Shown here: in pieces, positions 10,549 through 62,023 of the stretch
How the letters are laid out: each line of letters opens with the position of its first letter
Numbering within the stretch: position 1 is the first letter of the stretch
NCBI RefSeq assembly: GCF_041435215.1
Contig: NZ_CP108394.1
Coordinates: 9,858,001 to 9,922,000 of the forward strand
Direction of reading: 5' to 3'
DNA length: 64,000 bases
Source: Streptomyces sp. NBC_01314
GTDB taxonomy: Bacteria; Actinomycetota; Actinomycetes; Streptomycetales; Streptomycetaceae
Position numbers and translations under genes: made by a program
Notes under the pieces: generated by a model
Database searches by the model: none
The model's input: only the letters and a program-made list of their open reading frames with translations
Told to the model about the DNA's origin: nothing

Positions 10549-11934
10549 GTGAGTGGTACGGGAAGGCGGCGCGCGGGTGCCGGAGGCGGGGGGACGCGCC
10601 TGACGCGGCGGGGCCGGACGGTGAGCTGGCTCGCGGCCACTTCCGCCGTGCTCGTCCTCGGTGCGGGCGGTGTCGGTGCCTGGGTCTACAACGACCTCGA
10701 CAACAACATCACGGGCGCCGACGTCGACGGCAAACTCGGCGGGGACCGCCCGGTCAACCTCAGCCCGGGTTCGAAGAACATCATGGTCGTCGGCTCGGAC
10801 AGCCGTGACGGGGCGAACGCGAAGTACGGCAAGGACCTGACCACCATGCAGTCGGACACGCTGATGGTGCTGCACATCCCCGAGAACCGGGAATGGGCCA
10901 CCGTGGTGTCGTTCCCGCGTGACTCGTGGGTCGAGATATCGGCGTGCGAGAAGGGTGACGGCGGTACGTCCGGCCCGCATCTGGCGAAGATCAACGAGGC
11001 GTTCGCGATCGGTGGTTCGAGCGGTGAGGTCGCCGGAGCCGCCGCCTGTTCGATCAAGACGGTCGAGGCCAACACCGGTCTGCGCATAGACAACTTCATG
11101 TCCGTCGACTTCCAGGGCTTCAAGGGCATGGTCGACGCCCTGGAGGGCATCGAGGTCTGCCCCGAGCAGGCCATCTACGACGAGAACGCCCTCCTCGACA
11201 TGAAGGCGGGCTGCCAGACCGTCAAGGGGGAGACGGCGCTCGGCTACGTACGGACCCGCTACGCCGTCGGTGACGGCTCCGACATCGGACGCATCGGCCG
11301 CCAGCAGGAGTTCATGGAGGCCCTGGCCGCCAAGGCCAAGTCCAAGCTGACCAGCCCCACGTCGCTCTACGCCTTCCTGCAGTCCGCCACCAAGTCCCTG
11401 ACCACGGACGAGGATCTCGACGGTATCGACCCGATCTACGACCTCGCCTCCGAGCTCAAGGGCATCCCGAGCGACCGGCTGACCTTCCTGACCGTTCCCA
11501 ACTACCCTCGTGAGGCCGACGTCCCGACCGACAAGGCCAACGTCGTCTGGCAGTACCCGCAGGCCGCCGACCTGTTCACCTCCCTCGCCAACGACAGGGA
11601 GGTCGACAAGAAGCGGCTGCAGGCACAGGCGAAGAACGATCTGATCTACGCGTCCGGCGTACGCGTCCAGGTCCTCAACGGCACCGGGGTCACCGGCCGC
11701 GCCGCCGCCGTCGCCGAGAAGCTGCGCGAGGCCGGCTTCACCGTCGTGAGCACGGGCAACGCGCCCGAGAACACCGACGCCACCACGGTCGCCTATCCGG
11801 CCGACCTCACCAAGGAGGCGAAGGTCCTCGCCTCACGGTTGCCCGACACCAGGGCCACGCGGTCCGCGGACGCCGCCGCCGGGGTGGTGACCCTGGTCGT
11901 GGGCTCGGATCTCGACCTGGAGGAGTTGCGGTAA
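10549..11934 (+). CDS. LytR-CpsA-Psr (LCP) family cell-wall polymer ligase with LytR_C domain
   Basis: A 461-residue protein anchored by one N-terminal helix (VSWLAATSAVLVLGAGGVGAW is within it). LCP enzymes move teichoic acids or other glycopolymers from a lipid carrier to peptidoglycan outside the membrane. The LCP domain (about residues 65-270) shows MVVGSDSRDG, VVSFPRDSWV and GYVRTRYAVGDGSDIGRIGRQQ, with the arginines that hold the pyrophosphate. A LytR_C domain (VRVQVLNGTGVTGRA onward) ends the protein. GTG 10549 is preferred, with GGGG before it; an in-frame start at 10480 is possible. The upstream BlaI-type palindrome suggests cell-wall stress control. Confidence 0.92.
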   Translation: MSGTGRRRAGAGGGGTRLTRRGRTVSWLAATSAVLVLGAGGVGAWVYNDLDNNITGADVDGKLGGDRPVNLSPGSKNIMVVGSDSRDGANAKYGKDLTTMQSDTLMVLHIPENREWATVVSFPRDSWVEISACEKGDGGTSGPHLAKINEAFAIGGSSGEVAGAAACSIKTVEANTGLRIDNFMSVDFQGFKGMVDALEGIEVCPEQAIYDENALLDMKAGCQTVKGETALGYVRTRYAVGDGSDIGRIGRQQEFMEALAAKAKSKLTSPTSLYAFLQSATKSLTTDEDLDGIDPIYDLASELKGIPSDRLTFLTVPNYPREADVPTDKANVVWQYPQAADLFTSLANDREVDKKRLQAQAKNDLIYASGVRVQVLNGTGVTGRAAAVAEKLREAGFTVVSTGNAPENTDATTVAYPADLTKEAKVLASRLPDTRATRSADAAAGVVTLVVGSDLDLEELR

Positions 11935-40655: not shown

Positions 40656-42323
40656 TCAGCGCGAGGCTCTGCCCGACCACCGTGTCGTGGATATGAGCGA
40701 GGCCGTGAAGGCGTGCTGCGGTGCGGTGAGGAGCTGCCGGGCGGGACCCTGTTCGACCAGTTCCCCGGCGTCCATGACCGCGATGCGGTGGGCGACGGCG
40801 GCGGTGTCCAGGTCGTGGGTGATCAGGACGAGAGCCGGTCCGGCACCCTCCCCGTCGCCGAGCAGCCCCGTGAGGACGTCGAGGATGCCGCGCCGGGTGA
40901 CCGTGTCCAGGCCCGAGGTGATCTCGTCGCAGATCAGGACGCGGGGGCGGGCGAGGAGAGCGCGGGCCAGGGCGGCGCGCTGGAGTTCGCCGCCGGAGAG
41001 CTGGGCGGGGAGTCGGCGCACCAGTTCCGGGGGGAGGCCGAGGCGTGTCAGGGTGGTCAGCGCCTCGGCCTCGGCGCCGCGGTTGTCGACGCCGCGCAGC
41101 CGGACCGCCGTACGGGCGACCTGGCCCAGGACGGGGCGGTGCTCGTCGAAGGCGGCGCGGGCGTCCTGGAAGACGTACTGCACCGCCGCCAACTGCCCCC
41201 GACTGCGGTGGCGCAGGCTGCGCGGCAGGGGAGTGCCGTCGAGGAGGATCTCACCCTCGTGGTCACGGTGGAGCCCGGCGAGGCAGCGGGCGAGCGTGGT
41301 CTTGCCACTGCCCGAGCGCCCGACCACGGCCAGCAACTCCCCTGCTCGCAAGTCGAGTTGGGGTGCACGCACGATCACCGGTGTGCCGCGTGAGCCGTCG
41401 CGGTGGCGGGCGGTGAGATCGCGTACGCGCAGCACGGGCGCGGTGGTCGCCAGGGTGCCCCGGTCGTGGGATCCCGTGTCCGTGGCCGTGTTCGCGTCCA
41501 CCTCCGCCTCCACTTCTCTCTCCGTCGGCATCGTCGGCATCGCCGACTCCGTGAACGACGTTTGTGCGGCGAGGAGTTGACGGGTCCACTCGTGCCGGGG
41601 CGCCTCCCACACCCGCTCGGTGGGACCCGACTCCACGACAAGCCCCGCCCGCATGACATGGACCTCGTCGGCGAGCGCGCGGACGACGTCGAGGTCGTGG
41701 CTGAGCAGGACGACCGCGATGCCGCGCGCCGCGACAGCCGCCAACTGCGCGACGACTCGGCTCTTGGTCAACGCGTCCTGGCCGGTGGTGGGTTCGTCGG
41801 CGACGATGACCCGGGCGCCGAGCAGGAGGGCCTGGGCGAGGACGACGCGTTGCTGCTGGCCGCCGGAGAGCTGGTGCGGATAGCGGCGCAACAAGGGTGC
41901 GCCATCCGGGAGTTGGGCGTCGGCCAGAGCGTGGAGTACGCGTTCGCGCACGGCTGCCCGGCGTTTGCCGCGCGGCAGATGACGTACCTGCGTCCGGGCG
42001 ATGTCGGTGAGGAGGGCGCTGATCCTGCGGGCCGGGTTGAGCACGGCCGCCGGATGCTGAGGCACGTACCCGACGAGGCCGTCCGACGCCACGTGGATCT
42101 CGCCGCTGACGCGTGCGCCCGCCGGGAACTCGCCGAGCAGCGCCAGCCCGGTGGTCGTCTTCCCGCTGCCCGAGGCGCCCACCAGCGCGGTCACCCTGCC
42201 GGGCAGCACCCGCAGGGACAGGCCGTCGACGATCGCCCGGCCGCCCGCCTCGACCCGCAGGTCGGTGATCTCGGCCAGGGGCACCGAGACGGCCCGGGCG
42301 GCCTCGTGGTCGTGCCGCTTCAC
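40656..42323 (-). CDS. Opp/nickel-type ABC importer, fused double ATPase (DppD-DppF)
   Basis: A 555-residue protein with two complete ABC ATPase halves. First half: VGASGSGKTTTGLALLG, HQLSGGQQQRVVLAQAL, VIVADEPTTGQDAL. Second half: VGRSGSGKTTLARCLAG, AQLSGGELQRAALARAL, VLICDEITSGLDTV. A variable acidic linker (about residues 265-300) joins them. Such fusions drive peptide or metal-chelate importers. The GTG start at 42323 overlaps the upstream permease stop by 4 nt. It is the last gene of the minus-strand locus. Confidence 0.93.
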   Translation of the reverse strand: MKRHDHEAARAVSVPLAEITDLRVEAGGRAIVDGLSLRVLPGRVTALVGASGSGKTTTGLALLGEFPAGARVSGEIHVASDGLVGYVPQHPAAVLNPARRISALLTDIARTQVRHLPRGKRRAAVRERVLHALADAQLPDGAPLLRRYPHQLSGGQQQRVVLAQALLLGARVIVADEPTTGQDALTKSRVVAQLAAVAARGIAVVLLSHDLDVVRALADEVHVMRAGLVVESGPTERVWEAPRHEWTRQLLAAQTSFTESAMPTMPTEREVEAEVDANTATDTGSHDRGTLATTAPVLRVRDLTARHRDGSRGTPVIVRAPQLDLRAGELLAVVGRSGSGKTTLARCLAGLHRDHEGEILLDGTPLPRSLRHRSRGQLAAVQYVFQDARAAFDEHRPVLGQVARTAVRLRGVDNRGAEAEALTTLTRLGLPPELVRRLPAQLSGGELQRAALARALLARPRVLICDEITSGLDTVTRRGILDVLTGLLGDGEGAGPALVLITHDLDTAAVAHRIAVMDAGELVEQGPARQLLTAPQHAFTASLISTTRWSGRASR

Positions 42324-43189
42324 GGGCGTCGCTCCTTCCGTCCCCGGCGGCGGCCGGGCTTCTCCAGCGCGGCGTCGAAGAGGAGATTCGTGCCCGTGGT
42401 CAGCGCGATGATCAGCAGGGCGGGGACGACCACGGCCCACGGCTGCACGAACAGGCCTGTGCGGTTGCGGTCGACCATCACGGCCCAGTCGGCGGCGTCC
42501 GGGGCCACCCCGACCCCGAGGAACGCGGCCGTGGCGACCAGGTACAGCACACCGGTCAGCCGGGTGCCCGCGTCGGCGCCGAGGGTGCGCAGGATGGTGC
42601 GGCCGACATAGCCGACGGCGGTACGCCACCAGGTCTCGCCCTGGAGGCGGAGCGCCTCGACGACCGGCCGGCTGGCGGCCTCCGTGGCGGCGGCGCGCAC
42701 GAGGCGGGCCGCGTCCGGCACGTTGGCCAGTGCCACGAGGAGAGCGAGGCCGACGGCTCCGGGGGTGAACACGGACGCGACCAGCAGGATCAGCAGCAGC
42801 GAGGGGATGGCGATCAGGACGTCCAGGGGCCGCATCAGCAGTTCCTCCAGCCAGCGCCGGTGCGTCAGCGCGGCGATGAGGCCGACCGGCAGGGCGACGA
42901 GATAGGCCAGCGCTCCGGCGCCGAGCGCGGTCAGTACGACCGGGCGTCCGCCGTGCAGCACCTGCTGCCACACGTCCCGGCCCACGAAGTCCGTACCGAG
43001 CCAGTGCCCGTCGCCGAGCGTGAAGGAGGTGGCTCGCGCCCCCGGTTCTCCCGCGAACACCGGTCCCAGGAGGGCGAGGAGGAGAGGTACGGCGATGACC
43101 GCGACGCCGAGCGCGAATCGGCCCGTGTGCCGCCGGGTGCGAGGGATGACAGCCGTGCCGGCCGCCCCGATGTCCGTGTCCGTCGTCAC
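42320..43189 (-). CDS. Opp/nickel-type ABC permease (DppC-like)
   Basis: A 289-residue permease. N-terminal helix (FALGVAVIAVPLLLALLGP), then WLGTDFVGRDVWQQVLHGGR, a hallmark of DppC/NikC proteins, and five more helices; the ATPase-contact loop is RLVRAAATEAASRPVVEALR. The GTG starts overlap on both sides by 4 nt. Confidence 0.92.
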   Translation of the reverse strand: MTTDTDIGAAGTAVIPRTRRHTGRFALGVAVIAVPLLLALLGPVFAGEPGARATSFTLGDGHWLGTDFVGRDVWQQVLHGGRPVVLTALGAGALAYLVALPVGLIAALTHRRWLEELLMRPLDVLIAIPSLLLILLVASVFTPGAVGLALLVALANVPDAARLVRAAATEAASRPVVEALRLQGETWWRTAVGYVGRTILRTLGADAGTRLTGVLYLVATAAFLGVGVAPDAADWAVMVDRNRTGLFVQPWAVVVPALLIIALTTGTNLLFDAALEKPGRRRGRKERRP

Positions 43190-44292
43190 GCCGCCGCCCC
43201 CGCCCGGGGTGCGAGCAGTCGGGCGACCACGTCCGCGCCCAGGTTGAGGACGACGGTCAGGACGCCGAAGACCACGGCCAGGCCCTGGACGACGGGTACA
43301 TCGCGTTCGGCGACGGCGTTGAGGAGGACGGTGCCGAGTCCGGGGATCACGTAGAGGGCCTCCACGACGATGACGCCGCACAGCAACCAGTCGACGGTGC
43401 GGGCGAGTTGCTGGGCGGCGGGGGCGAGGGCGGCCGGGAGGGCGTGGGCGTAGCGGACGCGGGGGCCCGGGACGCCGTACCGGCGGGCGTGGGCGACGTA
43501 CGGGGAGGCGAGGGCGTCGACCATGCCGGCGCGGACCAGGCGGACGAGGGAGCAGACCGGCCGGGCGAGCAGGACGAGGACGGGCAGCACGAGCGCGGCC
43601 GGGTGGGCGAGCAGGTCGGTGCCGTAGCCGACGGCGGTCGGCGGCAGCCAGCCCCACCGCAGCGCGAACACGGTCACCAGCAGCACGCCGAGGGCGAACT
43701 CGGGAACCGCGTACACGGCGAGCGTCAGAGAAGTGACCAGCCGGTCCACGAGCCCGCCCTCGTGACGCGCGGCCAGCACGCCCAGCCCGAAGCCGATCGG
43801 CACGAGCAGGGCCACGGTGAGTGAGGCGAGCAGCAGGGTCGGTCCGAAGCCGTCGGCGATGTACCGGCCTACCGGACGGCCGGAGGTGAGGGAGGTGCCG
43901 AAGTCGCCGTGCAGCAGGCCGAGCGCCCAGCCGGCCAGCCGCTCGTGCACCGGCCGGTCCAGGTGCATCGCCTCGCGGATGGCGGCGATGCGCGCCGGGT
44001 CGGGCTGGTCGCCGGCCAGGGCCACCGCGGCGTCGCCCGGCAGCGCCTCGGTGAGCACGAAGACCAGCAGCACGACGGCCACGGTCTGCGCGACACCGAG
44101 GAGCAGCCGCCGGGCGACGAAGGAGCGCAGACCGCCGAGCGCTCCGCGGGAGGTGCCGAGACGGGCTGTCGTGCGTCCCCGGCGCCAACCCGGCCGGCCG
44201 CGCCCGGCGGAGTCGCATGCCGCTACGGCCCCGCGCCTCCCCGGGGCGCGGCCGAACCGTGGACGACTTCGCCCGGCCTGCCTGGGATTCAC
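43186..44292 (-). CDS. Opp/nickel-type ABC permease (DppB-like)
   Basis: A 368-residue permease with about 55 extra Arg/Gly-rich residues before the first helix (FVARRLLLGVAQTVAVVLLV). The DppB periplasmic loop GDFGTSLTSGRPVGRYI and contact loop YVAHARRYGVPGPRVRYAHA are present. GTG 44292 is preferred because it overlaps the binding-protein stop by 4 nt like the other junctions; GTG 44301 is possible. Confidence 0.9.
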   Translation of the reverse strand: MNPRQAGRSRPRFGRAPGRRGAVAACDSAGRGRPGWRRGRTTARLGTSRGALGGLRSFVARRLLLGVAQTVAVVLLVFVLTEALPGDAAVALAGDQPDPARIAAIREAMHLDRPVHERLAGWALGLLHGDFGTSLTSGRPVGRYIADGFGPTLLLASLTVALLVPIGFGLGVLAARHEGGLVDRLVTSLTLAVYAVPEFALGVLLVTVFALRWGWLPPTAVGYGTDLLAHPAALVLPVLVLLARPVCSLVRLVRAGMVDALASPYVAHARRYGVPGPRVRYAHALPAALAPAAQQLARTVDWLLCGVIVVEALYVIPGLGTVLLNAVAERDVPVVQGLAVVFGVLTVVLNLGADVVARLLAPRAGAAA

Positions 44293-45872
44293 GCGAGCCA
44301 CACCTTGTCGAACCGCGCCCAGTCCAGCGTGTTGGCGGGGGCCTTGGTCTCAACTCCCTTCACTGTCTTGCCCGTTCCGATGATCCAGTCCGCGAACCCC
44401 CAGATCAGGAAGCCGCCCTCGGCGTACAGTCGGCGCTGCATCCGCTCGTAGACGGCGGTCCGCTCCGTCTTGTCCCGCGTGGACTGCGCCTGCTGGTACA
44501 GCGCGTCGAAGTCCTTGTGCCGCCACTTGGTGGCGTTGGTCGTGGAGTCGGTGAGCAGCCGCTGCGAGATGTGTGCCTCGATGGGCATGGCGCCGGAGCG
44601 GTAGCAGGCGAGGGTGCCGGAGTCGAGGATGTCGCTCCAGTACGAGTCCTTGCTGCCCATCTTCACGTCGATCGTGACGCCCGCCTTCGCGGCCTGGTCG
44701 CGGAAGATGCCGGCCGCCTCGGTGAACCCGGCGGCCACGGCCGAGGTGTCCAGGCCGACCTTCAGCTTCTCGGCACCGGCCTGCTTCAGCAGCGCGCGGG
44801 CGCGGTCGAGGTCCTGTTCGCGCTGCGGGAGGTCGGCGGCGTAGTACTCGTAGCCCTTGCCGAAGAGGTCGTTGCCGACCACGCCCGCCCCCGACAGAGC
44901 GCCGTCGACGAGTTCCTGCCGGTCGGCGATCAGGAAGAACGCCTCCCGTACCCGCTTGTCGTCGAAGGGCGCCCGGTCGGTCTTCATGCAGAACGCCTGC
45001 ATGGCGCTGTTGCGCAGCCGGACGATCTCGATCTGCCCCTTGCCCTCATGGGCGCGGGCGGTGGTGGGATTCAGCTCATGGGCGTACTCGACCTGGCCGC
45101 CGAGGAGCGCGTTGACGCGGGCCGACTCCTCGTTGGCGACGACGAACTCGAGTTCGTCGAGGTGCGGGGCACCCTCCCAGTAGGTGTCGTAGCGGCGGAA
45201 GACGGCCGAGCGGCCGGGGGCGAAGGACACGAACCGGAAGGGGCCGGAGCCGATCGGCTTCTTGTCGAAGTCCGTGTCTGCGGTGTCCTCGGGAACGATG
45301 TACGCGCCGAACGCGGCCAGCACATTGGGGAATTCGGCGGTCGGCCGCTTCAGCACGAACTCGATGCTCCGCGCACCGGTGGCGCGGCTCGCGTCGAGGT
45401 CGATGGGCTCCAGGGACGCCTTCGCGCGGAACGCCTTCTCCGGGTCGGCGATACGGCGGTAGCTGTACAGCACGTCCTTCGCGGTGACCGGGCTGCCGTC
45501 GTGGAAGGTGGCCTCGCGCAGGCTGACCTGCCAGCGGTCCAGGGCCTTGTTCGCCTCCCAGTTCGTGGCGAGGCGCGGCTGCGCGGACAGATCGGCCCCG
45601 TAGTCGGCGAGCTTGTCGAACAGCGCCTTGGCTCTGGCGACGTCGGCGAACAGGCTCGCCAGGTGCGGGTCGAGGGTCTCACTGGCGCCGCCGCCCGCGA
45701 ACGCGGCTCGCAGCCGCCCGCCGCGCTTCGGCTCGCCGTCACCGGTGCTCGCCTCGCCGTCCGTGCCGCCGCTCTCGCCGCACCCCGTCAGGGCGAGCCC
45801 GCCGAGTGTGACGGCACCCGTGGCGGCGAGGAAGCCGCGTCGGCGCAGACCGGGGAAGAGTTCTTCGTGCAT
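44289..45872 (-). CDS. Opp/nickel-type substrate-binding lipoprotein (SBP_bac_5)
   Basis: A 527-residue exported protein. Its signal RRRGFLAATGAVTLGGLALT followed by GC is a twin-arginine-like lipoprotein signal with the cysteine near residue 31. Family-5 features: LDPHLASLFADVARAKALFD, ATFHDGSPVTAKDVLYSYRR and PIGSGPFRFVSF. It binds oligopeptides, nickel or metal chelates; local context favours a metallophore complex. AAGGAA precedes the ATG. The gap to the methyltransferase (45873-45928) has GGTGA repeats and no clear promoter, so it appears to be in the same operon. Confidence 0.92.
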   Translation of the reverse strand: MHEELFPGLRRRGFLAATGAVTLGGLALTGCGESGGTDGEASTGDGEPKRGGRLRAAFAGGGASETLDPHLASLFADVARAKALFDKLADYGADLSAQPRLATNWEANKALDRWQVSLREATFHDGSPVTAKDVLYSYRRIADPEKAFRAKASLEPIDLDASRATGARSIEFVLKRPTAEFPNVLAAFGAYIVPEDTADTDFDKKPIGSGPFRFVSFAPGRSAVFRRYDTYWEGAPHLDELEFVVANEESARVNALLGGQVEYAHELNPTTARAHEGKGQIEIVRLRNSAMQAFCMKTDRAPFDDKRVREAFFLIADRQELVDGALSGAGVVGNDLFGKGYEYYAADLPQREQDLDRARALLKQAGAEKLKVGLDTSAVAAGFTEAAGIFRDQAAKAGVTIDVKMGSKDSYWSDILDSGTLACYRSGAMPIEAHISQRLLTDSTTNATKWRHKDFDALYQQAQSTRDKTERTAVYERMQRRLYAEGGFLIWGFADWIIGTGKTVKGVETKAPANTLDWARFDKVWLA

Positions 45873-45928
45873 GAGGGTTCCTTGGGTGAGGTGAGGTGAG
45901 GTGAGGGCTGGGTGGCGTGGGCGGGAGG

Positions 45929-46723
45929 TCAGTGGGCGCTCATGCCGAGGCGGGCGACGACGTGCAGCCGGTCCGCGTCCGCCGTACGGCCCGGCAACTG
46001 CCCGTCCTGCCAGGGCGGTTCGGTGCGAGGGCCCGGCCCGTCGTGCAGTTCGAGCACCTCGAAGCCGTGCGCGGCCAGTACGTGACGCAGCTCCTGCGGG
46101 AACAACAGCCGCCAGGCGGACCGCTGTTCGACAGGTGGCGTGCCGTCGTCCGAGGTCCAGACACGGATACGGCGCAGCAGTCGGGCGGCGCGGTCCACGG
46201 TGAGGGTGGTCGTGGACCGGTAGGCGGTGCCCCGCCAGGTGAAGGTGTTGACGGCCGGGGTGCCGAGGAGGTCGGGACGGCCGAGGAAGTGGGCGCCGTT
46301 GCGCATCTCCGCGACCAGCAGCCCCCCGGGTCCGAGCGCCTGGCGGCAGGAGGAGAGGAAGCCGTCGAGCTGGGTGTCGGTGTGGCAGTAGAGGAGCGAG
46401 CTGTCCAGGCAGACGACCGCGTCGAAGGCCGCCCGGCCCAGGTCGAAGCCGTGCAGATCGGCCCGCACGTACACCGGGCCGGGATGCCGCTCGCGGGCAT
46501 GGGCGAGCATCGCCTCGGAGAGGTCGGCGCCGGTCACCGTACGGCCGCCGCCGTGCAGGTGGGCGGCGTCGCGCCCGGTGCCGCAGCCCATGTCAAGGAC
46601 CCGAGGCCCGGCCCTGTGGCGCCGCAGGCAGTCCTCGGCCCAACGCCCGGCCAGCCGCCCCGGATCGGGGAAACGGGCCTCGTACAGCTCGGGGTTGTCG
46701 GTGAGGAGGTTGCCGTTCGTCAT
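45929..46723 (-). CDS. Class I SAM-dependent methyltransferase
   Basis: A 264-residue enzyme: VLDMGCGTGRDAAHLHGGG (SAM loop), VTGADLSEAMLAHARERHPG, AAFDAVVCLDSSLLYCHT and LGPGGLLVAEMRNG. The substrate is small or unknown; in this locus it could methylate the metallophore or its precursor. The ATG overlaps the MFS stop by 4 nt. Confidence 0.9.
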   Translation of the reverse strand: MTNGNLLTDNPELYEARFPDPGRLAGRWAEDCLRRHRAGPRVLDMGCGTGRDAAHLHGGGRTVTGADLSEAMLAHARERHPGPVYVRADLHGFDLGRAAFDAVVCLDSSLLYCHTDTQLDGFLSSCRQALGPGGLLVAEMRNGAHFLGRPDLLGTPAVNTFTWRGTAYRSTTTLTVDRAARLLRRIRVWTSDDGTPPVEQRSAWRLLFPQELRHVLAAHGFEVLELHDGPGPRTEPPWQDGQLPGRTADADRLHVVARLGMSAH

Positions 46724-47982
46724 GCGCTGCTCTTCTCGGCGGCTGCGGTGGGGACGACGGCCGCGGGGTCCGCGGGCAGCGCCCCCAGCCGGTGCAGCCG
46801 ACCGACACCGGCCGCCGAGAGCAGCCCGAACAGGGCGCAGCACACCCAGGGCAGCCAGGCATGGCCGTTCCGCTCCCCGGCGTCCATGGCCCACCCCACG
46901 AAGGTGTTGCCGACGGCCGCGGCGATGCCCGAGACGACGTAGAAGATCCCGAAGTACGTGCCGGTCAGCTCCGGGCGCCCGAAGCGTGGGATCAGCTCCA
47001 TCACGAACGGCGAGGCGACCATGAGGCCGAGGTACAGGAGCAGCGCGCCGAGCAGGACGGGTACGGCGGCGAACCACCCGGAGGCACCGAGGCCCGCCCC
47101 CACGGCCGGCGGCAGGAACGCCAAACCTGTCACGGCGAGTCCCACACCGATCCAACGGCCCCTGCCGCCACGCGGCTTGAGCGCCTTGGTGATGCGCAGC
47201 TGGAGCGCGAGGTTGGCGAGCGTTCCGACGAGGAAGACGAGACCGGCCGCGCCGTCCCAGCCGGTGGCCTCCCGTGCCCCGGCGGGCAGCAGCAGGTACA
47301 GCTGGTTCTCCAGGGTGAACATGCCGACCATGGCGAGCGCGAACGCCAGGAAGGCCCGGTTGCCGAGAACCTCCTGCCAGTCCCCGAGGACACCGCCGCC
47401 GCTCGGCGCGACCTTCCGCGCGGGCAGGACGAGCGCCTGCGCGACGGTGAGGACCGCGAAGATCGCGGCGGCGGTCAGCGCGGACGTACGGAAGTCCACG
47501 AGCAGCAGCACGCTGCCCAGCAGCGGCCCGACCAGGGCTCCCGTGGTCGCGAAGACGTTGAACAGCGCGAACGCCTCCGCCTTGCGCTCCCCGGCCTCCT
47601 GCGACAGATACGCCCGCACCGCCGGATTGAACAGCGCCCCGGCGAGCCCGCTGAGCACCGACGCGGCCAGCAGCACCGGCAGCCCGTCGCCGAGCGCGAA
47701 CAGCCCGAAACCGACGGTCCGCAGCGCACAACCGGCGATGATCACGCCCCGCGCGCCGAGCCGGTCCGAGGCGGAGCCGCCGATGATGAACAGGCCCTGC
47801 TGGCTGAGGTTCCGCACGCCCAGGACGATGCCGACGACGGCCGCCGACATGCCCAGGTTCTCGGTGAGGTGGGTGGCGAGGTAGGGGATCAGGAGATAGA
47901 AGCCGATGTTGACGCCGAGCTGGTTGACCAGGAGGAGACGGACGGCGAAGGGGAAGCGGCGGATCTCATGCCACGTCTGCAC
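46720..47982 (-). CDS. MFS exporter (DHA1-like)
   Basis: A 420-residue, 12-helix permease: LVNQLGVNIGFYLLIPYLAT at helix 1, GSASDRLGARGVI in the signature loop, LSGLAGALFNPAVRAYLSQE in helix 4-5. Members of this type export small peptides and siderophores. The GTG start (47982) lies 17 nt inside the epimerase gene and GGGAGAG precedes it. I infer that it exports the product of this locus. Confidence 0.9.
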   Translation of the reverse strand: MQTWHEIRRFPFAVRLLLVNQLGVNIGFYLLIPYLATHLTENLGMSAAVVGIVLGVRNLSQQGLFIIGGSASDRLGARGVIIAGCALRTVGFGLFALGDGLPVLLAASVLSGLAGALFNPAVRAYLSQEAGERKAEAFALFNVFATTGALVGPLLGSVLLLVDFRTSALTAAAIFAVLTVAQALVLPARKVAPSGGGVLGDWQEVLGNRAFLAFALAMVGMFTLENQLYLLLPAGAREATGWDGAAGLVFLVGTLANLALQLRITKALKPRGGRGRWIGVGLAVTGLAFLPPAVGAGLGASGWFAAVPVLLGALLLYLGLMVASPFVMELIPRFGRPELTGTYFGIFYVVSGIAAAVGNTFVGWAMDAGERNGHAWLPWVCCALFGLLSAAGVGRLHRLGALPADPAAVVPTAAAEKSSA

Positions 47983-49111
47983 GGCGTATCTCTCCCGTTC
48001 CTTCGGCTCCTTCGGCTCCTTCGGCTCCTTCGGCTCCTTCGGTCGTGCGGCGCCGAACTCCCAGCCCCGGCAGTTCGGTTGTGCGTACGAACCCGTCGGC
48101 GCCGCCGATCCCGGTCCACGGGTCGTCGGCGAGCAGGAGATGCCCGTCGAGGTCCACCCAGCGGGCCCGGTCCGCGAGGTGGACGGCGGGGGCGAGACCG
48201 AGGCTGCTGGCGGTGAGGCAGCCCAGCATCAGCTCGGTGCCGCTGCCCTCGATCGCTTCGGCGATCCGCAGTGCCGCATGGACGCCGCCGCACTTGGCGA
48301 GCTTGACGTTGACTCCGTGCACCCGTCCCGCCAACCGCCGCACGTCCTCCAGTCCCACGGCGTCCTCGTCGGCGATGAGGGGCAACGGCGAGCGCGCGGC
48401 GAGGGCCGCCAGGGCGTCCGGATCGCCGGGTGCGAGTGGTTGCTCGACGGCCTCCACCCCGAGTTCCGCGAATCGCGGCAGCAGGGCCTCGGCCTGCGCC
48501 GGCGTCCAGGCGCCGTTGGGATCCAGGAGGAGCCGGACCCGGGGCGCGGCGTCCCGGATGACCCGTACGCGCTCGACGTCCTCCTCCGGGTCCGGGGCCC
48601 CGGCCTTCACCTTGACGACCTCGAAGCCGCTCGCGGCGAGCCGGCGCGCCTCGGCCCCGGCACGCATCGGCGAGACGATGCCGATGGTCCGGGCGGTCGC
48701 GGCCACCGGCGCGGCCGACGCGCCGAGAAGCCGGTGCACGGGCCTGCCCGCCCGCTTCCCGACGAGGTCGAGGAGCGCGGCCTCGGCGGCGGCGGTGACG
48801 GCCGGGGGGAGGGCGGACCTCCGGCCGATGGCCGCGGGGGAGCCAGAGGCGGCCGACTCGCCTCGCAGCGCCTCCAAGGCGCTCTCCGGATCGCGGAAGC
48901 GTACGAGGGCCGCGGCGACATCGGCGAACAGGCGTTCCAGGGTGCCGGCGTCGAGGCCGTAGTAGACGCTGGTGACGGCCTCGCCGTGGCCGCGCACCCC
49001 GTCGTCGTCCTCGACGGTCAGCCACACCGCGTCACGCGCGGCCATGGTGGAGCGGGAGATGCGCAACGGCTCGGCGAGTTCGAGGCGTACGGTGCGCTGG
49101 GTGACCTTCAC
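47966..49111 (-). CDS. Dipeptide epimerase (enolase superfamily, L-Ala-D/L-Glu epimerase type)
   Basis: A 381-residue TIM-barrel enzyme. The KxK motif is Lys167/Lys169 in FEVVKVKAG; metal ligands are Asp197 (LLLDPNGAW), Glu223 (AVEQPL) and Asp248 (IADEDA); the second base is Lys270 (NVKLAKCGG). It epimerises a dipeptide alpha-carbon in known members. The C-terminus has four EGA repeats from a 9-bp tandem repeat near 48000-48040. GTG 49111 has GGAGG 6 nt upstream; ATG 49132 has none. Its link to the metallophore-like genes is by operon position. Confidence 0.92.
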   Translation of the reverse strand: MKVTQRTVRLELAEPLRISRSTMAARDAVWLTVEDDDGVRGHGEAVTSVYYGLDAGTLERLFADVAAALVRFRDPESALEALRGESAASGSPAAIGRRSALPPAVTAAAEAALLDLVGKRAGRPVHRLLGASAAPVAATARTIGIVSPMRAGAEARRLAASGFEVVKVKAGAPDPEEDVERVRVIRDAAPRVRLLLDPNGAWTPAQAEALLPRFAELGVEAVEQPLAPGDPDALAALAARSPLPLIADEDAVGLEDVRRLAGRVHGVNVKLAKCGGVHAALRIAEAIEGSGTELMLGCLTASSLGLAPAVHLADRARWVDLDGHLLLADDPWTGIGGADGFVRTTELPGLGVRRRTTEGAEGAEGAEGAEGTGEIRRADVA

Positions 49112-49127
49112 CGGGTTCCTCCGAGGA

Positions 49128-49430
49128 TGCATCGGCCTTCAGGCCTGGGAGGAATCGGACTCCTCCGGAGCAGGGCCGGAAGCGGGATTTCGCCTCCAGG
49201 GCGAAACACCGTCCACCTGATCGGGTAAGCTGCACGCCGTGCGTTGCGAGAGCCAAGCGCGTACACCGTGCTGATCGAGAGCCAAGACAGCACATGCACC
49301 TCCAAGCTTTGCCGTATCAAACCGGGCTGGTTTCAACCCGGCTGGTGTTGATCGTGGAAGACCTGTTGGGTCGCTGACCCGCAGGCAGCGTGAGCCAGGA
49401 ATCCCCCTGCTTCAGCTGGGGGAGGATTCA
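49128..49430. mobile_element. IS200/IS605-like palindromic remnant
   Basis: At 49399-49430 AATCCCCC and GGGGGAGGATTC flank a GC-TTCA-GC loop, the form typical of the right end of IS200/IS605-family elements behind tnpB. A weaker GGCCTTCAGGCC-TGGGAGGA hairpin lies at about 49133-49155. The roughly 240 bp between hold no intact transposase and no other gene; one plus-strand frame ends REPGIPLLQLG, which may be a tnpB tail. It interrupts the minus-strand locus and the PLP-enzyme stop codon lies inside its end. Confidence 0.45.
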
Positions 49431-50516
49431 AAGTGTCTCTTCCGGATGGGGAGCCTTGAGCGGGTCGCGGACCCTGCCGCACCGGACCCAGCCGACGGCC
49501 TCGGCCGCGCCGGGATGGGGGATCTCGACGGGCCGGACGGCGGCGGAGGCGGGGTCGATGCCGTGGGCGGTGGCGAAGTCGTCGTCGTAGACGCTGCCGA
49601 GGTAGCGGTGCGGGCCGTCCGGGAAGACGGTGGCGACGACGGCGCCCGGGTGGACGCGGGCCGCCCAGGCGGCGACGACCGCGACCGCGCCGGTGCTCCA
49701 GCCGCCGCTGACGAAGCTGCCCCGCGCCAGGCGGCGACAGCTGTCGACGGCCTCCGCCGGGCCCACCCAGTGCACCTCGTCGAAGGCGTCGTAGGCCACG
49801 TTGCGCGGGTGGATGCTGCTGCCCAGGCCGCGCATCAGCCTCGGCCGGGCGGGCTGGCCGAAGATCGTCGAGCCGGTGGAGTCGACGCCGATGAGGCGCA
49901 GTGCGGGCCAGTGCCGCCGCAGCGGGCCGATGATGCCCGCACTGTGGCCGCCGGTCCCGACGCTGCACACCAGGATGTCCAAATGGTCCAGCTGAACGGC
50001 GAGTTCGGCGGCGAGCGAGGCGTAACCGGCCGTGTTGTCGGGGTTGTTGTACTGGTCGGGCCAGTACGCCCCCGGCAGTACGGCGAGCAGCTCCCGCAGC
50101 CGCGCCAGGCGGGCCGCCTGCCAGCCGCCCATGGCTGCCGGGCGGTCCACCAGTTCCAGCCGCACACCGTGGGAGCGCAGCAACTGCCGCATGGACGGCT
50201 CCAGTTCACTGTCGCCGACCAGCACGACGGGATGGCCCAGTGCCTGCCCCGCGAAGGCCAGCCCGATGCCCAGGGTGCCGGACGTCGACTCCACCACGGG
50301 TGCGCCGGGCAGCAGCTCACCGCGTTCCCGGGCGCCCAGCAACATGGACACGGCGGCCCGTGCCTTCATACCGCCCGCGGCGAGCCCTTCCAGTTTGGCC
50401 CAGAACCCCGGCTGGGGACCGGGGAGATCGGCGGTGATGCGCGCCAGCGGCGTCCGCCCGACGAGGGACAGCAACTCCGGGCGGGCGACCGCACGGAGGA
50501 CGGTCGACGATGTCAC
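49428..50516 (-). CDS. PLP-dependent cysteine-synthase-like enzyme
   Basis: A 362-residue fold-type II PLP enzyme. Lys51 in AAGGMKARAAVS is the Schiff-base lysine, VVESTSGTLGIGLAFAG the phosphate/substrate loop and VCSVGTGGHSAGI the glycine loop. Relatives join an activated serine to a nucleophile, for example SbnA in siderophore synthesis with glutamate. No serine acetyltransferase is nearby. The GTG start overlaps the upstream stop by 4 nt. The last residues (HPEETL) run into the IS-like end, so the native C-terminus may be altered. Confidence 0.88.
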   Translation of the reverse strand: MTSSTVLRAVARPELLSLVGRTPLARITADLPGPQPGFWAKLEGLAAGGMKARAAVSMLLGARERGELLPGAPVVESTSGTLGIGLAFAGQALGHPVVLVGDSELEPSMRQLLRSHGVRLELVDRPAAMGGWQAARLARLRELLAVLPGAYWPDQYNNPDNTAGYASLAAELAVQLDHLDILVCSVGTGGHSAGIIGPLRRHWPALRLIGVDSTGSTIFGQPARPRLMRGLGSSIHPRNVAYDAFDEVHWVGPAEAVDSCRRLARGSFVSGGWSTGAVAVVAAWAARVHPGAVVATVFPDGPHRYLGSVYDDDFATAHGIDPASAAVRPVEIPHPGAAEAVGWVRCGRVRDPLKAPHPEETL

Positions 50517-51391
50517 CGGCCGTCTCCCGCTTCCGGACGGGAGCCCGGGCCGGCGTCCGTTCCGTCCAGGCGGTAGCGGTGCAGCGTGCCCGGCCCCGCG
50601 TCCAGCCAGAAGAAGGGGTACGGCTCCGCGCAGACCGCGCTCACCCCGTGACCGAGGAACCTGGGCAGTACCGCACTGCCCGTCTGCGCGAACATCACCA
50701 GCTGCTTGCCGTACGACAGCGCGTGCCGCCGCAACGGTTCGAAGCTGCCGTTGCCCAACGTCATTCCGGAGACCAGCAGCGCGTCACAGCGGTCGGCCGC
50801 CCCGAGCGCATCGGTGACGACCTCCTCACCCCACTCGGTGACCCCGCCCTTGAGATCGCACGGCACAGAGCGGAGGCCTCGTGAACGCAGCGCCTCCAGC
50901 AGGGAGTTGACGACTCCGACCACAAGCACCGTGGCACCTGCGGGCAGATCGAGCAGTTCGACGACGGCCCGCGCCCGCGCCCGCGACTTCTCCAGCGACG
51001 TACCGGCCGGCAGGGGGAAGGGCCGTGCCCCGTTCTCCGTGGTGTGCGGGCCGACATGCATCAGATAGGCGTCCAGCGCGGCCACCCGCACCGGGAGGAG
51101 CGGATGCGCCAGGAGCCGGGCGGCGTCGGCGCCGGCACAGTCGTCGATCGCCGCGTCCGGCAGCGCACCGGGTTCGACCGCGCAGGATCCCACGGCACCG
51201 GCGAGACGCAGACTGAGCACCTCGTTCCGATAGCCGGTGCCCCGCCCGTCGTGCCGCACCGCCTGTCGCGTCACGAACGCCACAGCGACACGCAATGTCT
51301 GTGGATCCGGGCCGAGTTCGCCTGTGAGGGCACGCTCCAGCAGTTCCTCGAACGTGGCGGCCGTGTCGGCCACCGGCGCGACGGCGGTCAC
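50513..51391 (-). CDS. Rossmann-like DUF4213/DUF364 protein (putative heavy-metal chelation family)
   Basis: A 292-residue protein. The N-terminal half (TFEELLERALTGELGP to AVGSCAVEPGALPD) resembles DUF4213 and the C-terminal half (ATVLVVGVVNSLLEALRSRG, DALLVSGMTLGNGSFEPLRR) the DUF364 Rossmann-like domain, which Pfam labels putative heavy-metal chelation. No reaction is established. It sits between the ATP-grasp and PLP enzymes with 4-nt overlaps on both sides, arguing that the three act in one pathway. Confidence 0.8.
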   Translation of the reverse strand: MTAVAPVADTAATFEELLERALTGELGPDPQTLRVAVAFVTRQAVRHDGRGTGYRNEVLSLRLAGAVGSCAVEPGALPDAAIDDCAGADAARLLAHPLLPVRVAALDAYLMHVGPHTTENGARPFPLPAGTSLEKSRARARAVVELLDLPAGATVLVVGVVNSLLEALRSRGLRSVPCDLKGGVTEWGEEVVTDALGAADRCDALLVSGMTLGNGSFEPLRRHALSYGKQLVMFAQTGSAVLPRFLGHGVSAVCAEPYPFFWLDAGPGTLHRYRLDGTDAGPGSRPEAGDGR

Positions 51392-52644
51392 CGGATCACC
51401 AGCCCGGCGCGCAACTCGCCCAGCAGCGCCTCGACCTGCCCGCGCGCGCCCGGCCCGGCCGGGTCGCCCACCATGACATGGCCGAGATACTCGTTGTTGC
51501 TGCCGGCCGACCTGACCTGCCGGCCCGGCTCGGCGAGCTGCACCTCCAACACGCCCGCCAGGTCGGCGATCCGACCGCCGTCCAGTGCTTCGAGCGTGCC
51601 CGACGTCTCCGGTACGAGGAAGCCGACGGCTGCGCTGCGCAGCCCCGTCTCCCGGCGCCGCAGATCGGGCTCGCGGCCGAGGGCGACCTCCACGGCGGCC
51701 GCGGCGAGGTCGATGCCGGTGACATGCCGGACCAGTTCGGTGATGCGGTTCCCGGCGGGCCGGGGGTTGACCTCGACCACGCGTGGACCGGCGGGGGTCA
51801 GCTTGATCTCGGTGTGGGCGACGACGCCGTCGGTCAGCCCGAGCGCCTTGAGGGCGCCCAGCGCGGTCTGCTCGGCGGCGTCGGTGTCGGCGCCGGTCAG
51901 GGCGGCGGGGAACATGTGCCCGGTCTCGATGAACGCGGGCGCCCCGCCGATGCTCTTGTCCGTCACGCCCACGACGTGCACGGCTCCCGCGTACGACACG
52001 GTCTCGACGCTCACCTCGGGCCCGGTCAGCAGCTCTTCGAGGAGGACGGCGGGCACCCGTCGCTGCCCGCGCGCGTTCAGCGGGAAGTCGGCCAACGACC
52101 GTACGGCGGAGGCGAGTTCGACCTCGTTGTCCACGCGCCGTACGTACATGCCCGCGCACAGGTCGACGGGCTTGACGACCAGCGGATAGCCGATCTCCCG
52201 CGCCGCGCGTGCGAGGTCGGCCCACTCCTCGTGGAGGGCGAAACGGGGTCCGGGCACGTCGGCGTCGGCGAGGACGCGGCGGGTGGCGTCCTTGCGGCAG
52301 GCGTTCGCCACGGCCTCCGGGCCAGGCCCGGGGAGTCCGAGGTGGCCGGCGAGCCGGGCCACCGTCGGCAGGTAGTAGTCGCAGGACGAGATCACGCCGT
52401 CGAAGCCGAACACCGAGTGCAGGCGTTCCGCCTCCGGCAGGAGGGTGGCGAGGTCGTTGGTGTCGGCCGTGACCACGTTCCGCGCGCCGAGCAGCGGATG
52501 GGCCGTGCCCTCGGGGGCCGAGCGCAGATAGTGGTGCAGGTCGCGGGTGAGGAACGTGAACTCGTGGCCGCCCTCCCGGATGGCCCGTGGCAGCAGTCTG
52601 CTCATCGATCCGACCCAGCTCTCGACCACCAACAGATGAGCCAC
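51388..52644 (-). CDS. ATP-grasp ligase
   Basis: A 418-residue carboxylate-amine ligase. HLLVVESWVGSMSRLLPRAI begins the first domain; YPLVVKPVDLCAGMYVRRVD is the ATP-binding lysine region; VLLEELLTGPEVSVETVSYA and VEVNPRPAGNRITELVRHVTG carry the Mg-ATP ligands. It would form an amide or peptide bond between an acyl-phosphate and an amine. GTG 52644 has GGGGAG just upstream; ATG 52659 has no ribosome binding site. It is the first gene of the locus, about 90 bp behind the Zur-like box. Confidence 0.9.
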   Translation of the reverse strand: MAHLLVVESWVGSMSRLLPRAIREGGHEFTFLTRDLHHYLRSAPEGTAHPLLGARNVVTADTNDLATLLPEAERLHSVFGFDGVISSCDYYLPTVARLAGHLGLPGPGPEAVANACRKDATRRVLADADVPGPRFALHEEWADLARAAREIGYPLVVKPVDLCAGMYVRRVDNEVELASAVRSLADFPLNARGQRRVPAVLLEELLTGPEVSVETVSYAGAVHVVGVTDKSIGGAPAFIETGHMFPAALTGADTDAAEQTALGALKALGLTDGVVAHTEIKLTPAGPRVVEVNPRPAGNRITELVRHVTGIDLAAAAVEVALGREPDLRRRETGLRSAAVGFLVPETSGTLEALDGGRIADLAGVLEVQLAEPGRQVRSAGSNNEYLGHVMVGDPAGPGARGQVEALLGELRAGLVIR

Positions 52645-52735
52645 AGCTCCCCTTTTCATGCGGTGCGTACAGGCGTCAGGGCAGCCCGACGACGCCCCGA
52701 CAAAGGGGGCGCCCTGCTTGACATGCTCACCTTAT

Positions 52736-52750
52736 CGATAACCGTTTTCA
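52736..52750 (-). promoter_or_regulatory. Zur-like box heading the metallophore-type locus
   Basis: On the minus strand this is TGAAAACGGTTATCG, a 7-1-7 dyad with 5 of 7 paired positions. Its left arm matches the TGAAAA half of known actinobacterial Zur boxes (TGAAAATNATTTTCA type). It lies about 92 bp before the ATP-grasp start in the only long AT-rich patch of this intergenic region, next to a TGACAA element that could be a -35. Confidence 0.6.
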
Positions 52751-52823
52751 TTGTCATGGGGTGGGGTCGTTGTGGTGCGGGACGACAGGGGTGACGCCGG
52801 TCAGGGTCGAGGCGGGCCGGAGC

Positions 52824-58854: not shown

Positions 58855-60504
58855 TCAAGTCGACGTGCAGGCCGCCCCGTTGAGCGTGAACGTGGTCGGA
58901 GCGGGGTTCGTGGTGCCGCGTGTCGCCGTGAAGCCGAGGGTGACCGAGCCCGCCGCGGGGATGTTCGCGGTGTAGGAGGCGGCGGTGACGGTGACGGCAG
59001 CGCCGGACTGGGCCGCCGTGCCGCCCCACAGGCTGGAGACGCGCTGACTGTCGGGGAAGGTCCAGCGGAGGGTCCACCCGTTGACCGCCGAGGTGCCGGT
59101 GTTGCGGATGACGATCTCGCCCTGGAAACCGCCGGACCACTCGCCCGTCACCCGGTAGCCGAGAGCACAGGACGCCGTGGAACCGCCGGAGGCGGTCGTG
59201 ACGGTCACCGTTCCCGAGCGCGCCGAGCGGTTGCCGGCCGCGTCGCGCGCGTAGACGGCGAAGGTGTACGAGGTGGCGGGAGTCAGGCCCGTGAGGGTGG
59301 CGGAGGTGCTTGTCGTGGTGGTCGCGGCGGTCTCGGTGGTGCCGTTGACGCGGACCACGTCGTAGCCCGTGACGCCGGTCGCGTCGGTGGCGGCGGTCCA
59401 GGTCAGGGTGGCGGACGAGGAGGTCGCCGCGGAGGCGGTCGGGGTTCCGGGAGCCGTCGGGGGAGTGGTGTCGCCGCCGGAGGAGGAGTAGATCGCGGCC
59501 TCCTTGGACGTGGCGGCGATGCCGTTCGCGCCGTTGAAGAGGCGCTGTCCCCAACTGGTCAGCTGGTTCGGGTCGAAGTTCGTGACCATGTCCAGGTACT
59601 CCACACCGCCGCCGTTGCCGCTCCAGGACCAGCCGAGATAACCGAGGCCGAGTCGCTGCGCGGTGGCGAGGATGGCGTCCTCGTCGGGGTTGCCGTCCGA
59701 ATGGTCGTGGCCGAACTCACCCACCACGATGGGGAGTTTCGCCGCCACGAACCGGTTGAGGTAGTCGCTGACCTCCGCCGCCGTGTCGAAGACGCCGTAC
59801 ATGTGGATGGAGAAGACCGTGTTGGCGTCCGGGTCGGCGGCGAAGACGGAGGCCGCGTTGTCGCGCATGGTGAACGCCCAGTCCTGGCCCCAGTTGGGAG
59901 CGTCGACCATGATCGTGTGGTCGAATCCGGCGGTGCGCAGCTTCTGGATCGCCGCCTTGGTGTCGGCCGTCCAGCCCGCGTAGTTGTTGTTGCCGTACGG
60001 CTCGTTGCCGATGTTGACGATGACGTGGTCCTCCTGACCCGTCAGCGCACTCTGCACACTGATCCAGTAGTCGGCGGCCCGCGAGAGCGTGACCGCCCCG
60101 CTCTGCTCGCCGTAACCCGTGGTGTCGTGCACCTCCAGGACACAGATGAGCCGGTTCCGCTTGCACTGCGCCACGACGTTCGCCACATCGGTGGTGTCGT
60201 TGCGGGTCCACCGGTCGCCGCTGGCCAGGACGACGCGCACGGTGTTGGCGCCCTTGGCCTTGATGTGGGCGAGCGAGCCGATCTGGTTCGGATACCAGGT
60301 GTGGGCGTGGTTCACGCCGCGCATCACGAAGTCGTTGCCGGAGCGCTCCAGGAGCCGGCCGTTCTCGACACGGAAACCGGTGGGCGCCGCGTGCGCCGGC
60401 GCGCCGAAGACGAACAGGGGCAGGAGCAGACCGAGGAGGGCCGCGGCGAGTGCGGCCGTGCGCGGTGGGCGGAGGAGGGCCGGCGTGCGCGTACGGGATC
60501 TCAT
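58855..60504 (-). CDS. Secreted GH5 beta-mannanase with Fn3 and CBM2 domains
   Basis: A 549-residue secreted enzyme. Signal peptide to about residue 40 (APAHAAP). The GH5 barrel (42-335) has MRGVNHAHTWYP, typical of the mannanase subfamily, acid/base Glu168 in VNIGNEPYG and nucleophile Glu263 in VVGEFGHDHSDG. A fibronectin-3 domain (about 350-440) and a cellulose-binding CBM2 (about 445-549, ALGYRVTGEWSGGFQGEI) follow. It hydrolyses mannan in plant walls. It lies 73 nt behind the esterase on the same strand, likely one transcript. Confidence 0.93.
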   Translation of the reverse strand: MRSRTRTPALLRPPRTAALAAALLGLLLPLFVFGAPAHAAPTGFRVENGRLLERSGNDFVMRGVNHAHTWYPNQIGSLAHIKAKGANTVRVVLASGDRWTRNDTTDVANVVAQCKRNRLICVLEVHDTTGYGEQSGAVTLSRAADYWISVQSALTGQEDHVIVNIGNEPYGNNNYAGWTADTKAAIQKLRTAGFDHTIMVDAPNWGQDWAFTMRDNAASVFAADPDANTVFSIHMYGVFDTAAEVSDYLNRFVAAKLPIVVGEFGHDHSDGNPDEDAILATAQRLGLGYLGWSWSGNGGGVEYLDMVTNFDPNQLTSWGQRLFNGANGIAATSKEAAIYSSSGGDTTPPTAPGTPTASAATSSSATLTWTAATDATGVTGYDVVRVNGTTETAATTTTSTSATLTGLTPATSYTFAVYARDAAGNRSARSGTVTVTTASGGSTASCALGYRVTGEWSGGFQGEIVIRNTGTSAVNGWTLRWTFPDSQRVSSLWGGTAAQSGAAVTVTAASYTANIPAAGSVTLGFTATRGTTNPAPTTFTLNGAACTST

Positions 60505-60577: not shown

Positions 60578-61687
60578 TTACGAGGAGGCGGCAGCCCTCG
60601 CCGTGCAACCGACCGTCGCCGACGGCGTCCCGGCCGTGGCGGAGGTCGTGGCGACGAACCCGAACGTGGCGCTCGCGCCCGGTGCGAGCGTGCCGTTCCA
60701 CGAGGCGTTGGTGACCGTGGCCGTGCCGTCGGTCGCTGTGGTCGAGGTCCCGTTCCAGACCTGGGTGAGACGGGCCCCGCCGGCCGGTACGACGGTCACG
60801 GTCCAGCCCGAGACGGTGGACGCGGAGGTGTTCGTCACCGTCACCTCGCCCTGGTAGCCGCCCTGCCAGACGTTGGTGGCCCGGAAGACCGCACCACACG
60901 CGGGCTGACCGCCACCCGGATCGCCGGGGTCGCCCGGATCACCAGGCACCCACGCGTCCAGAACCGAACTCAGCGCCGGGTACCAACGAGCGGCGATCTT
61001 GTCGTCGCCCGCGGCGTTCGGATGCACTCCGTCGTTCGTGTCGGTCGCCGTGCTGAACCCCGTCCACTGGTCGACCACGGTCACGGGCGAGTCGCCGGTG
61101 CTCGTCGCCCGGGCCCAGTCCGGGATCCGCGCGTTGAAGTCGACGACCCGCTGCGCGCAGCCCGAGCAGCTGCCGGGGTTCATGGGGATGAGCTGCGCGA
61201 CGAGGATCCGCATGTCCGGGTTGGAGGCCCGCATCTGCCCGACCAGCTTGGTGTACGCGGCGAGAATGCGGTCGGGGGCGATGCTGCTCCACACGTCGTT
61301 GGTGCCGAAGTGCATGACAACGATGTCTGGAAGTGTCGCGGCCAGCCGGGCGGGCAGCAGGTTCTGGTCGGCGACGTTGGTCACCAACTCGCCGCCGTGG
61401 CCCTCGTTGTCGCCGTCGTGCTCCTGCCCGCAGCCCTGCGTGCCGAGCGTGCCGACGAAGTCGATGTCCGTGTAGCCGGCGGTGCGCAGCCGGTTCCACA
61501 GCACCGCCCGCCAGCAGCCGGGCGAGCCGGTGATCGAGTCGCCGAGCGGCATGACGCGCGCGGGGGTCGCCGCCGTGTCGGCCGCCGCCGCGGGCGGCGC
61601 GAGGGTCAGTCCGATGGACAGGAGCAGGGCGGCCAGGAGGCCGAGAAGCGGTAGGTGCCGTACGGGGGAATGTCGGGTGTTGCGCAT
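60578..61687 (-). CDS. Secreted SGNH-hydrolase (carbohydrate esterase) with CBM2
   Basis: A 369-residue secreted esterase. Signal peptide about 1-37. SGNH blocks: RVMPLGDSITGS (Ser51), GHGGELV, VVMHFGTNDVWSSI and DGVHPNAAGD with the catalytic Asp and His. A GDPGDPGDPGG linker joins a C-terminal CBM2 (AVFRATNVWQGGYQGEVTVT). It probably removes acetyl groups from hemicellulose so that the co-transcribed mannanase can act. ATG 61687 has AAGGGA upstream; a longer frame from 61750 would run through the CebR box and is rejected. Confidence 0.92.
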   Translation of the reverse strand: MRNTRHSPVRHLPLLGLLAALLLSIGLTLAPPAAAADTAATPARVMPLGDSITGSPGCWRAVLWNRLRTAGYTDIDFVGTLGTQGCGQEHDGDNEGHGGELVTNVADQNLLPARLAATLPDIVVMHFGTNDVWSSIAPDRILAAYTKLVGQMRASNPDMRILVAQLIPMNPGSCSGCAQRVVDFNARIPDWARATSTGDSPVTVVDQWTGFSTATDTNDGVHPNAAGDDKIAARWYPALSSVLDAWVPGDPGDPGDPGGGQPACGAVFRATNVWQGGYQGEVTVTNTSASTVSGWTVTVVPAGGARLTQVWNGTSTTATDGTATVTNASWNGTLAPGASATFGFVATTSATAGTPSATVGCTARAAASS

Positions 61688-61712
61688 GGTGGTCCCTTCC
61701 CTGGGTGAGAGA

Positions 61713-61726
61713 TGGGAGCGCTCCCA
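61713..61726. promoter_or_regulatory. CebR operator, perfect consensus
   Basis: TGGGAGCGCTCCCA is the exact 14-bp CebR box known from Streptomyces cellulose-utilisation genes. It lies 25 bp upstream of the esterase start, so CebR released by cello-oligosaccharides should control the esterase and mannanase. Confidence 0.9.
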
Positions 61727-62023
61727 GATGCAACTTGCCATCGTTGTCATTCACACGTCAAGATGGCTGCGCGCATCTTTGCGCGCCCCTTCTTTCGCCC
61801 CCGCACCCCTCGACCTGGCGGCCGACGCGGGCGTCGACATCGATGCCCTGCCCCTCGAACCCGGTGCGTCGAGCGACGGCACGGACCCTGGCGATTGACC
61901 ACAGCCGCCCTGCCGGAACGCGGTGTGCTCCCGGTGGTATCGGCCGGTGACGATCTGTGGTCGGCGCGGCCGGCGGCGGTGACGCGGCCGCCACCACAAG
62001 GTAGAGCCCAACATCAATCGACA

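Follow-up and report, generated by a model that had tools for sequence, protein, structure and literature searches.

A candidate Zur-controlled zincophore operon with an SbnA-like enzyme and a DUF364 protein at its core in Streptomyces sp. NBC_01314

The 64,000-nucleotide stretch of Streptomyces sp. NBC_01314 analyzed here (contig NZ_CP108394.1, positions 9,858,001 to 9,922,000; hereafter the window) carries ten minus-strand genes (40656-52659) that probably form a Zur-repressed zincophore operon. Judging from the sequences, a pyridoxal phosphate (PLP)-dependent enzyme and a DUF364 protein would make the backbone of the chelator, a major facilitator superfamily (MFS) protein would export it, and a Nik-type ATP-binding cassette (ABC) importer would take back the zinc complex. 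Such a route to a small zinc binder would dispense with the hallmark genes of the metal-scavenging pathways known to us. Its core recurs in many actinobacteria. The first-pass annotation of the window had already read the locus as a zinc-controlled metallophore system. Two parts of that reading, control of the Zur type and a make/export/import organization, are well supported in silico, with a box conserved across species and a core kept together with exporter and importer. That the product chelates a metal stays our inference.

The Zur-like box proposed near the start of the operon was recovered well beyond chance, by pattern and by matrix, as a 15-bp core at 52736-52750 on the minus strand. 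A probable -10 hexamer (TAnnnT, 52729-52734, same strand) comes directly after it. We followed the box in 80 named loci, which are the best 80 of the 286 confirmed DUF364 relatives in named genomes and are biased to the cluster type of the window (79 are titled Streptomyces and one "Actinobacteria bacterium"). A box matching at least 12 of 15 positions is present in 77 of the 80, compared with none of 160 Markov sequences. The upstream sequence was long enough in 76 of these loci. Their cores match the type-A consensus at 15 positions in 40 cases, 14 in 27, 13 in 6, 12 in 2, and 11 in 1. All 76 have a TA at constant spacing after the core. Among the examined stretches upstream of the ATP-grasp gene that opens the operon, the copy of the window included, 85 of 85 have a box of at least 10/15, although in two of them the best match lies elsewhere in the stretch. 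The same pattern has 28 matches in the genome of the window, against 4 for the reversed control.

A matrix points to the same site. It was built from 40 sites of non-type-A clusters, picked using a presupposed Zur consensus. Its top site in the window is 52730-52756 (29.7 bits), far from the next-best window site (13.8 bits) and from the best score over ten Markov sequences (14.3 bits). It also gives 28.6 bits at the promoter of a ZnuA-family gene of the same genome, and this site is the important anchor because the 40 sites behind the matrix were chosen by a presupposed consensus. Two boxes precede the ZnuA-family gene (PF01297, 244 bits), which is followed by an ATPase gene, an ABC-3 permease gene, and a Fur-family gene whose product we tentatively take to be Zur from its position. 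The candidate operon and the zinc-uptake operon of this genome have this Zur-like box in common, which bears on the choice of metal. A metallophore for nickel, cobalt, or iron would agree with an importer that is closest to NikABCDE-type families and with the siderophore-type FecBCD importers of many relatives, but the box shared with the ZnuA-family operon makes it very unlikely, and a nickel system was rejected on this ground. Elsewhere in the genome (G000:C1:3611500-3622500), a 14/15 Zur-like box at about 3611851 lies before a second family 5 substrate-binding protein gene (PF00496) with permease-like and ATPase genes, possibly another Zur-controlled importer.

The two core genes lie next to each other, DUF364 at 50513-51391 and the gene of the PLP enzyme, a member of the PALP family, at 49428-50516 (both minus strand). 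The first had been labelled DUF4213/DUF364. The DUF364 part of the label stands, and Pfam gave no DUF4213 domain. The Pfam score is borderline (22.8 bits in one search, where the cut-off is 23, and 24.2 bits in another), while the predicted structure (mean predicted local distance difference test score of 86.5) fits the experimental structures of two DUF364 proteins, 3l5o and 3npg, over 222 residues. These are 12-13% identical to the protein of the window and are both titled "unknown function". By family match or by predicted fold, the protein belongs to DUF364 (PF04016), a domain labelled "putative heavy-metal chelation". Among the 80 named loci, its closest relatives are in Streptomyces europaeiscabiei (91% identity), followed by S. 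scabiei, S. adelaidensis, S. ipomoeae, and S. stelliscabiei (89-90%).

The second core gene had been called cysteine-synthase-like, but its product is closer to SbnA than to cysteine synthase. The best relative in the PDB is SbnA (144.8 bits), with the STSG and GSxxFG motifs aligned, and the best NCBIfam model is also that of SbnA (TIGR03945, 237.9 bits, below the curated cut-off of 349.95). Over 123 clusters, GSxxFG is found in 120, [ED]S[ST]SG in 123, G[LI]GSS in 116, and the MK pattern in 113. A plain cysteine synthase was ruled out, since SbnA scores higher both in NCBIfam and among PDB sequences and GSxxFG is kept in 120 of the 123 clusters. In the staphyloferrin B pathway, SbnA joins O-phosphoserine to glutamate and SbnB then splits the product. 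The enzyme of the window shares the SbnA type with this pathway, but it scores under the SbnA family cut-off and has no SbnB-type gene (ornithine cyclodeaminase family) near it: the genome has five PF02423 matches, four of them over the cut-off, and all are elsewhere. Since there is no such gene nearby to split it, the joined product is likely to be kept.

The operon could then work as follows. With zinc present, Zur would block the promoter by occupying the box that lies immediately ahead of the -10 hexamer, and zinc starvation would open the operon. The SbnA-like enzyme would link an activated serine, through its beta-carbon, to the amino group of a second amino acid. This would give an N-(2-amino-2-carboxyethyl)-amino acid with amines and carboxylates positioned for metal binding, which would be retained as the chelating backbone and then processed by the DUF364 protein. 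In the variant found in the window, the ATP-grasp enzyme would add an amino acid, the epimerase would set the configuration of this addition, and the methyltransferase would cap the product. The MFS protein would be the exporter and the Nik-type ABC system the importer of the zinc complex.

The complete locus is conserved. All ten genes are present in 74 of the 80 named loci, and for five of the six incomplete ones (L028, L030, L049, L053, L087) the contig is short or comes to its end. A complete ten-gene set also occurs on a mobilizable, linear plasmid of Rhodococcus sp. ZPP (NZ_CP058639.1, L248), where a matrix match of 30.3 bits lies ahead of the genes, yet has only 10/15 positions of the consensus. 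This plasmid has a DUF1490 gene after the set and a second matrix match at position 19803 of the locus. A Streptomyces plasmid (L245) has the gene set with one permease not listed. In the four copies on plasmids whose annotation we inspected, the genes have generic names only.

The core extends beyond this cluster type. DUF364 profile searches had hits in 30 of 394 genomes of the class (8 of 137 genera), in 12 of 150 genomes of one other family (seven already in the earlier set), and in 5 of 296 genomes of the phylum (four being Streptomyces already in the set, and one weak). We read 43 clusters in full and added 8 more strong ones (L237-L244), the resulting 51 being every strong match of these profile searches outside the window. 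The 43 all have a PALP gene, 42 have an MFS gene (the exception is at a contig end), and 38 have an importer, of the Fec type in 27 and of the Nik type in 11. The additional 8 have PALP and MFS genes in every case and an importer in 7. Overall, PALP accompanies DUF364 in 51 of 51 clusters, MFS in 50, and a Nik- or FecBCD-type importer in 45. Three weak DUF364 matches have no PALP gene beside them. DUF364-type clusters were also found on plasmids of Rhodococcus, Embleya, and Tsukamurella. The neighbourhood check suggested by the first-pass annotation found that other genomes keep its three-gene core (ATP-grasp, DUF364, PALP) beside the exporter and the importer, and a core separated from the transporters was not the outcome.

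Two unrelated classes of importer accompany the same core, and the tailoring genes vary: among the 43 clusters, 27 have a GHMP kinase, 19 a C-type methyltransferase, 10 the ATP-grasp and epimerase pair, and 2 a PhyH oxygenase. The GHMP kinases could supply the phosphorylated serine. The leanest cluster (L212) has only PALP, DUF364, MFS, and FecBCD genes after a 13/15 box. The cluster types are connected by L222, as it joins a Nik-type importer to a set of methyltransferase, PALP, PhyH, DUF364, and MFS genes. A box of at least 12/15 is found in 30 of the 43 clusters and in 1 of 86 Markov sequences. A few clusters have unusual arrangements. In L217, one DUF364/GHMP/PALP core lies between two FecBCD importer sets, and one genome (G012) has both a FecBCD-type cluster (L138) and a reduced window-type copy (L242) that has no methyltransferase in the stretch read. 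Directly behind the DUF364/PALP/PhyH cluster of L140 is a Fur-family gene (10623-11036), about 43% identical to the one that follows the ZnuA-family gene in the genome of the window.

We put forward, tentatively and at slightly less than even chances, a new class of metallophores defined by the SbnA-like PLP enzyme and DUF364. Its members would have an opine-like chelating backbone that is not cleaved to diaminopropionate, DUF364 as the second core enzyme, swappable tailoring genes, and two types of importer, largely under Zur. The assignment of DUF364 as a core enzyme would be, to our knowledge, the first function of that domain, and would provide it with a role that can be tested. If true, the proposal describes a way of acquiring zinc that is spread over many Streptomyces species and eleven further actinobacterial genera, and that is also encoded on Rhodococcus, Embleya, and Tsukamurella plasmids. 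It would also give a genome-mining signature for metallophores made independently of nonribosomal peptide synthetases (NRPS), namely DUF364, the SbnA-like PLP enzyme, an MFS protein, an importer, and a Zur box.

The same clusters bring up the main rival explanation. The core could be homologous to the Zur-controlled [S,S]-ethylenediamine-disuccinate (EDDS) operon (aes) of Amycolatopsis japonicum or to the related EDHA cluster of actinomycetes, and the product would then belong to the published class of aminopolycarboxylates. These clusters are metal-controlled, belong to actinobacteria, and build a serine-derived diamino backbone, three traits that the locus of the window would share. More specifically, the aesA-D operon is under zinc/Zur control, and one diamino unit of EDDS derives from serine. 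In addition, in 13 of the 20 non-Streptomyces clusters among the 43, a methyltransferase and a GHMP kinase accompany DUF364 and PALP, and many of these clusters have near-perfect Zur-like boxes. However, the EDDS route uses SbnB-like and lyase enzymes, none of which is among the ten genes, and we regard this explanation as unlikely.

Two explanations give the locus a role with peptides. The product could be a small non-chelating peptide, an antimetabolite or a signal, released at zinc shortage, with an importer meant for peptide uptake. An ATP-grasp dipeptide ligase, a dipeptide epimerase, an MFS protein, and an Opp-type importer would also suit a bacilysin-like dipeptide. We consider this improbable: the ATP-grasp and epimerase pair is in only 10 of the 43 DUF364 clusters, whereas PALP, MFS, and importer are kept in most, and FecBCD-type importers would be more in keeping with the uptake of a metal complex than with that of a peptide. 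Alternatively, the importer, the epimerase, and the PLP enzyme could break down imported peptides, as dipeptide epimerases often work in the recycling of murein peptides. Such a salvage leaves the ATP-grasp ligase, the MFS protein, the Zur-like box, and the cores paired with FecBCD importers unexplained; in its simple form it was rejected for this reason, and we give it a very small probability.

Several observations weigh against the zincophore reading itself. In five of the 43 clusters, of which two are at contig ends, the sequence read contains no importer, and L242 has the core genes and no importer genes in the stretch read. In one named locus (L062) the genes from MFS onward, importer included, are absent though the sequence goes on. 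The box of the window is an 11/15 match, among the weaker type-A copies, and 13 of the 43 clusters have no box of at least 12/15. The matrix also gives 26.5 bits at a site between converging gene ends, with no evident target gene (L133, G000:C1:3460500-3465500, about 2355), so a high matrix score alone does not make a working operator. For the Fur-family protein of the ZnuA operon (PF01475, 96.2 bits), two NCBIfam models of Fur give higher scores (71.5 and 70 bits) than the model of Zur does (36.4 bits), all below cut-off. Finally, we know of no reaction of DUF364.

The comparison with known systems shows what is shared and what is missing. Staphylopine and other cnt-type systems combine synthesis enzymes, an MFS exporter, and an Opp/Nik-type importer in one zinc-controlled locus, and the locus of the window joins the same three elements by family, with importer subunits that match the CntA, CntC, CntD, and CntF models of NCBIfam below cut-off. 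Unlike these systems, the genome has no match to nicotianamine synthase (PF03059), and the family lists of the ten genes (the best 25 for two of the proteins) include neither opine dehydrogenase nor histidine racemase. An opine (cnt) metallophore was rejected, as its defining genes were not found. Coelibactin, a Zur-controlled NRPS product of S. coelicolor, would share with the locus Zur control in a Streptomyces, but its NRPS route is not matched here, as none of the domain matches listed for the ten genes is to an NRPS. The absence of nicotianamine-synthase-like, opine dehydrogenase, SbnB-like, and NRPS genes noted at first pass is therefore borne out, in the whole genome for PF03059, near the locus for the SbnB type, and among the matches listed for the ten genes for the others.

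All ten genes were found in the order and on the strand given by the first-pass annotation, in a host genome of 11.3 Mb. The operon opens with the ATP-grasp amino-acid ligase-like enzyme (51388-52659), whose best PDB match is the L-amino acid ligase BL00235 (3vot) and whose translation probably starts at GTG 52644, preceded by a ribosome-binding site, rather than at ATG 52659. After the two core genes come an enolase-superfamily dipeptide epimerase-like enzyme (47966-49111), in which acid/base and metal-site motifs were found, the MFS transporter (46720-47982), and a class I S-adenosylmethionine-dependent methyltransferase (45929-46723). The importer consists of a family 5 (NikA/Opp-type) substrate-binding lipoprotein (44289-45872), a NikB-like permease (43186-44118, start uncertain, with an open frame extending to 44301), a NikC-like permease (42320-43189), and fused NikD-NikE-type ATPases (40656-42323). 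From the MFS transporter to the ATPases, these assignments are family matches.

The chain of overlapping genes described earlier is present for most neighbours, with four-base or short overlaps between ATP-grasp and DUF364, DUF364 and PALP, epimerase and MFS, MFS and methyltransferase, NikB and NikC, and NikC and ATPase. It is interrupted between PALP and epimerase by an element of about 0.3 kb (49118-49431, no strand assigned) that resembles IS200/IS605 insertion sequences. Related pieces are found at 11 other places of the genome, two spanning most of the element and others one end only. In the closest relative (L022) the element is absent and the PALP and epimerase genes overlap directly, so it is not part of the shared operon; it looks like an internally deleted IS200/IS605-type remnant that split a former gene overlap. 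Upstream of the operon are genes for a DUF2201-type metallopeptidase/VWA protein and an AAA ATPase, with no evident link to it. Further along the window, a family 5 cellulase (58855-60504) and a GDSL lipase/acylhydrolase (60578-61750) are neighbours, each with a C-terminal CBM2 cellulose-binding domain.

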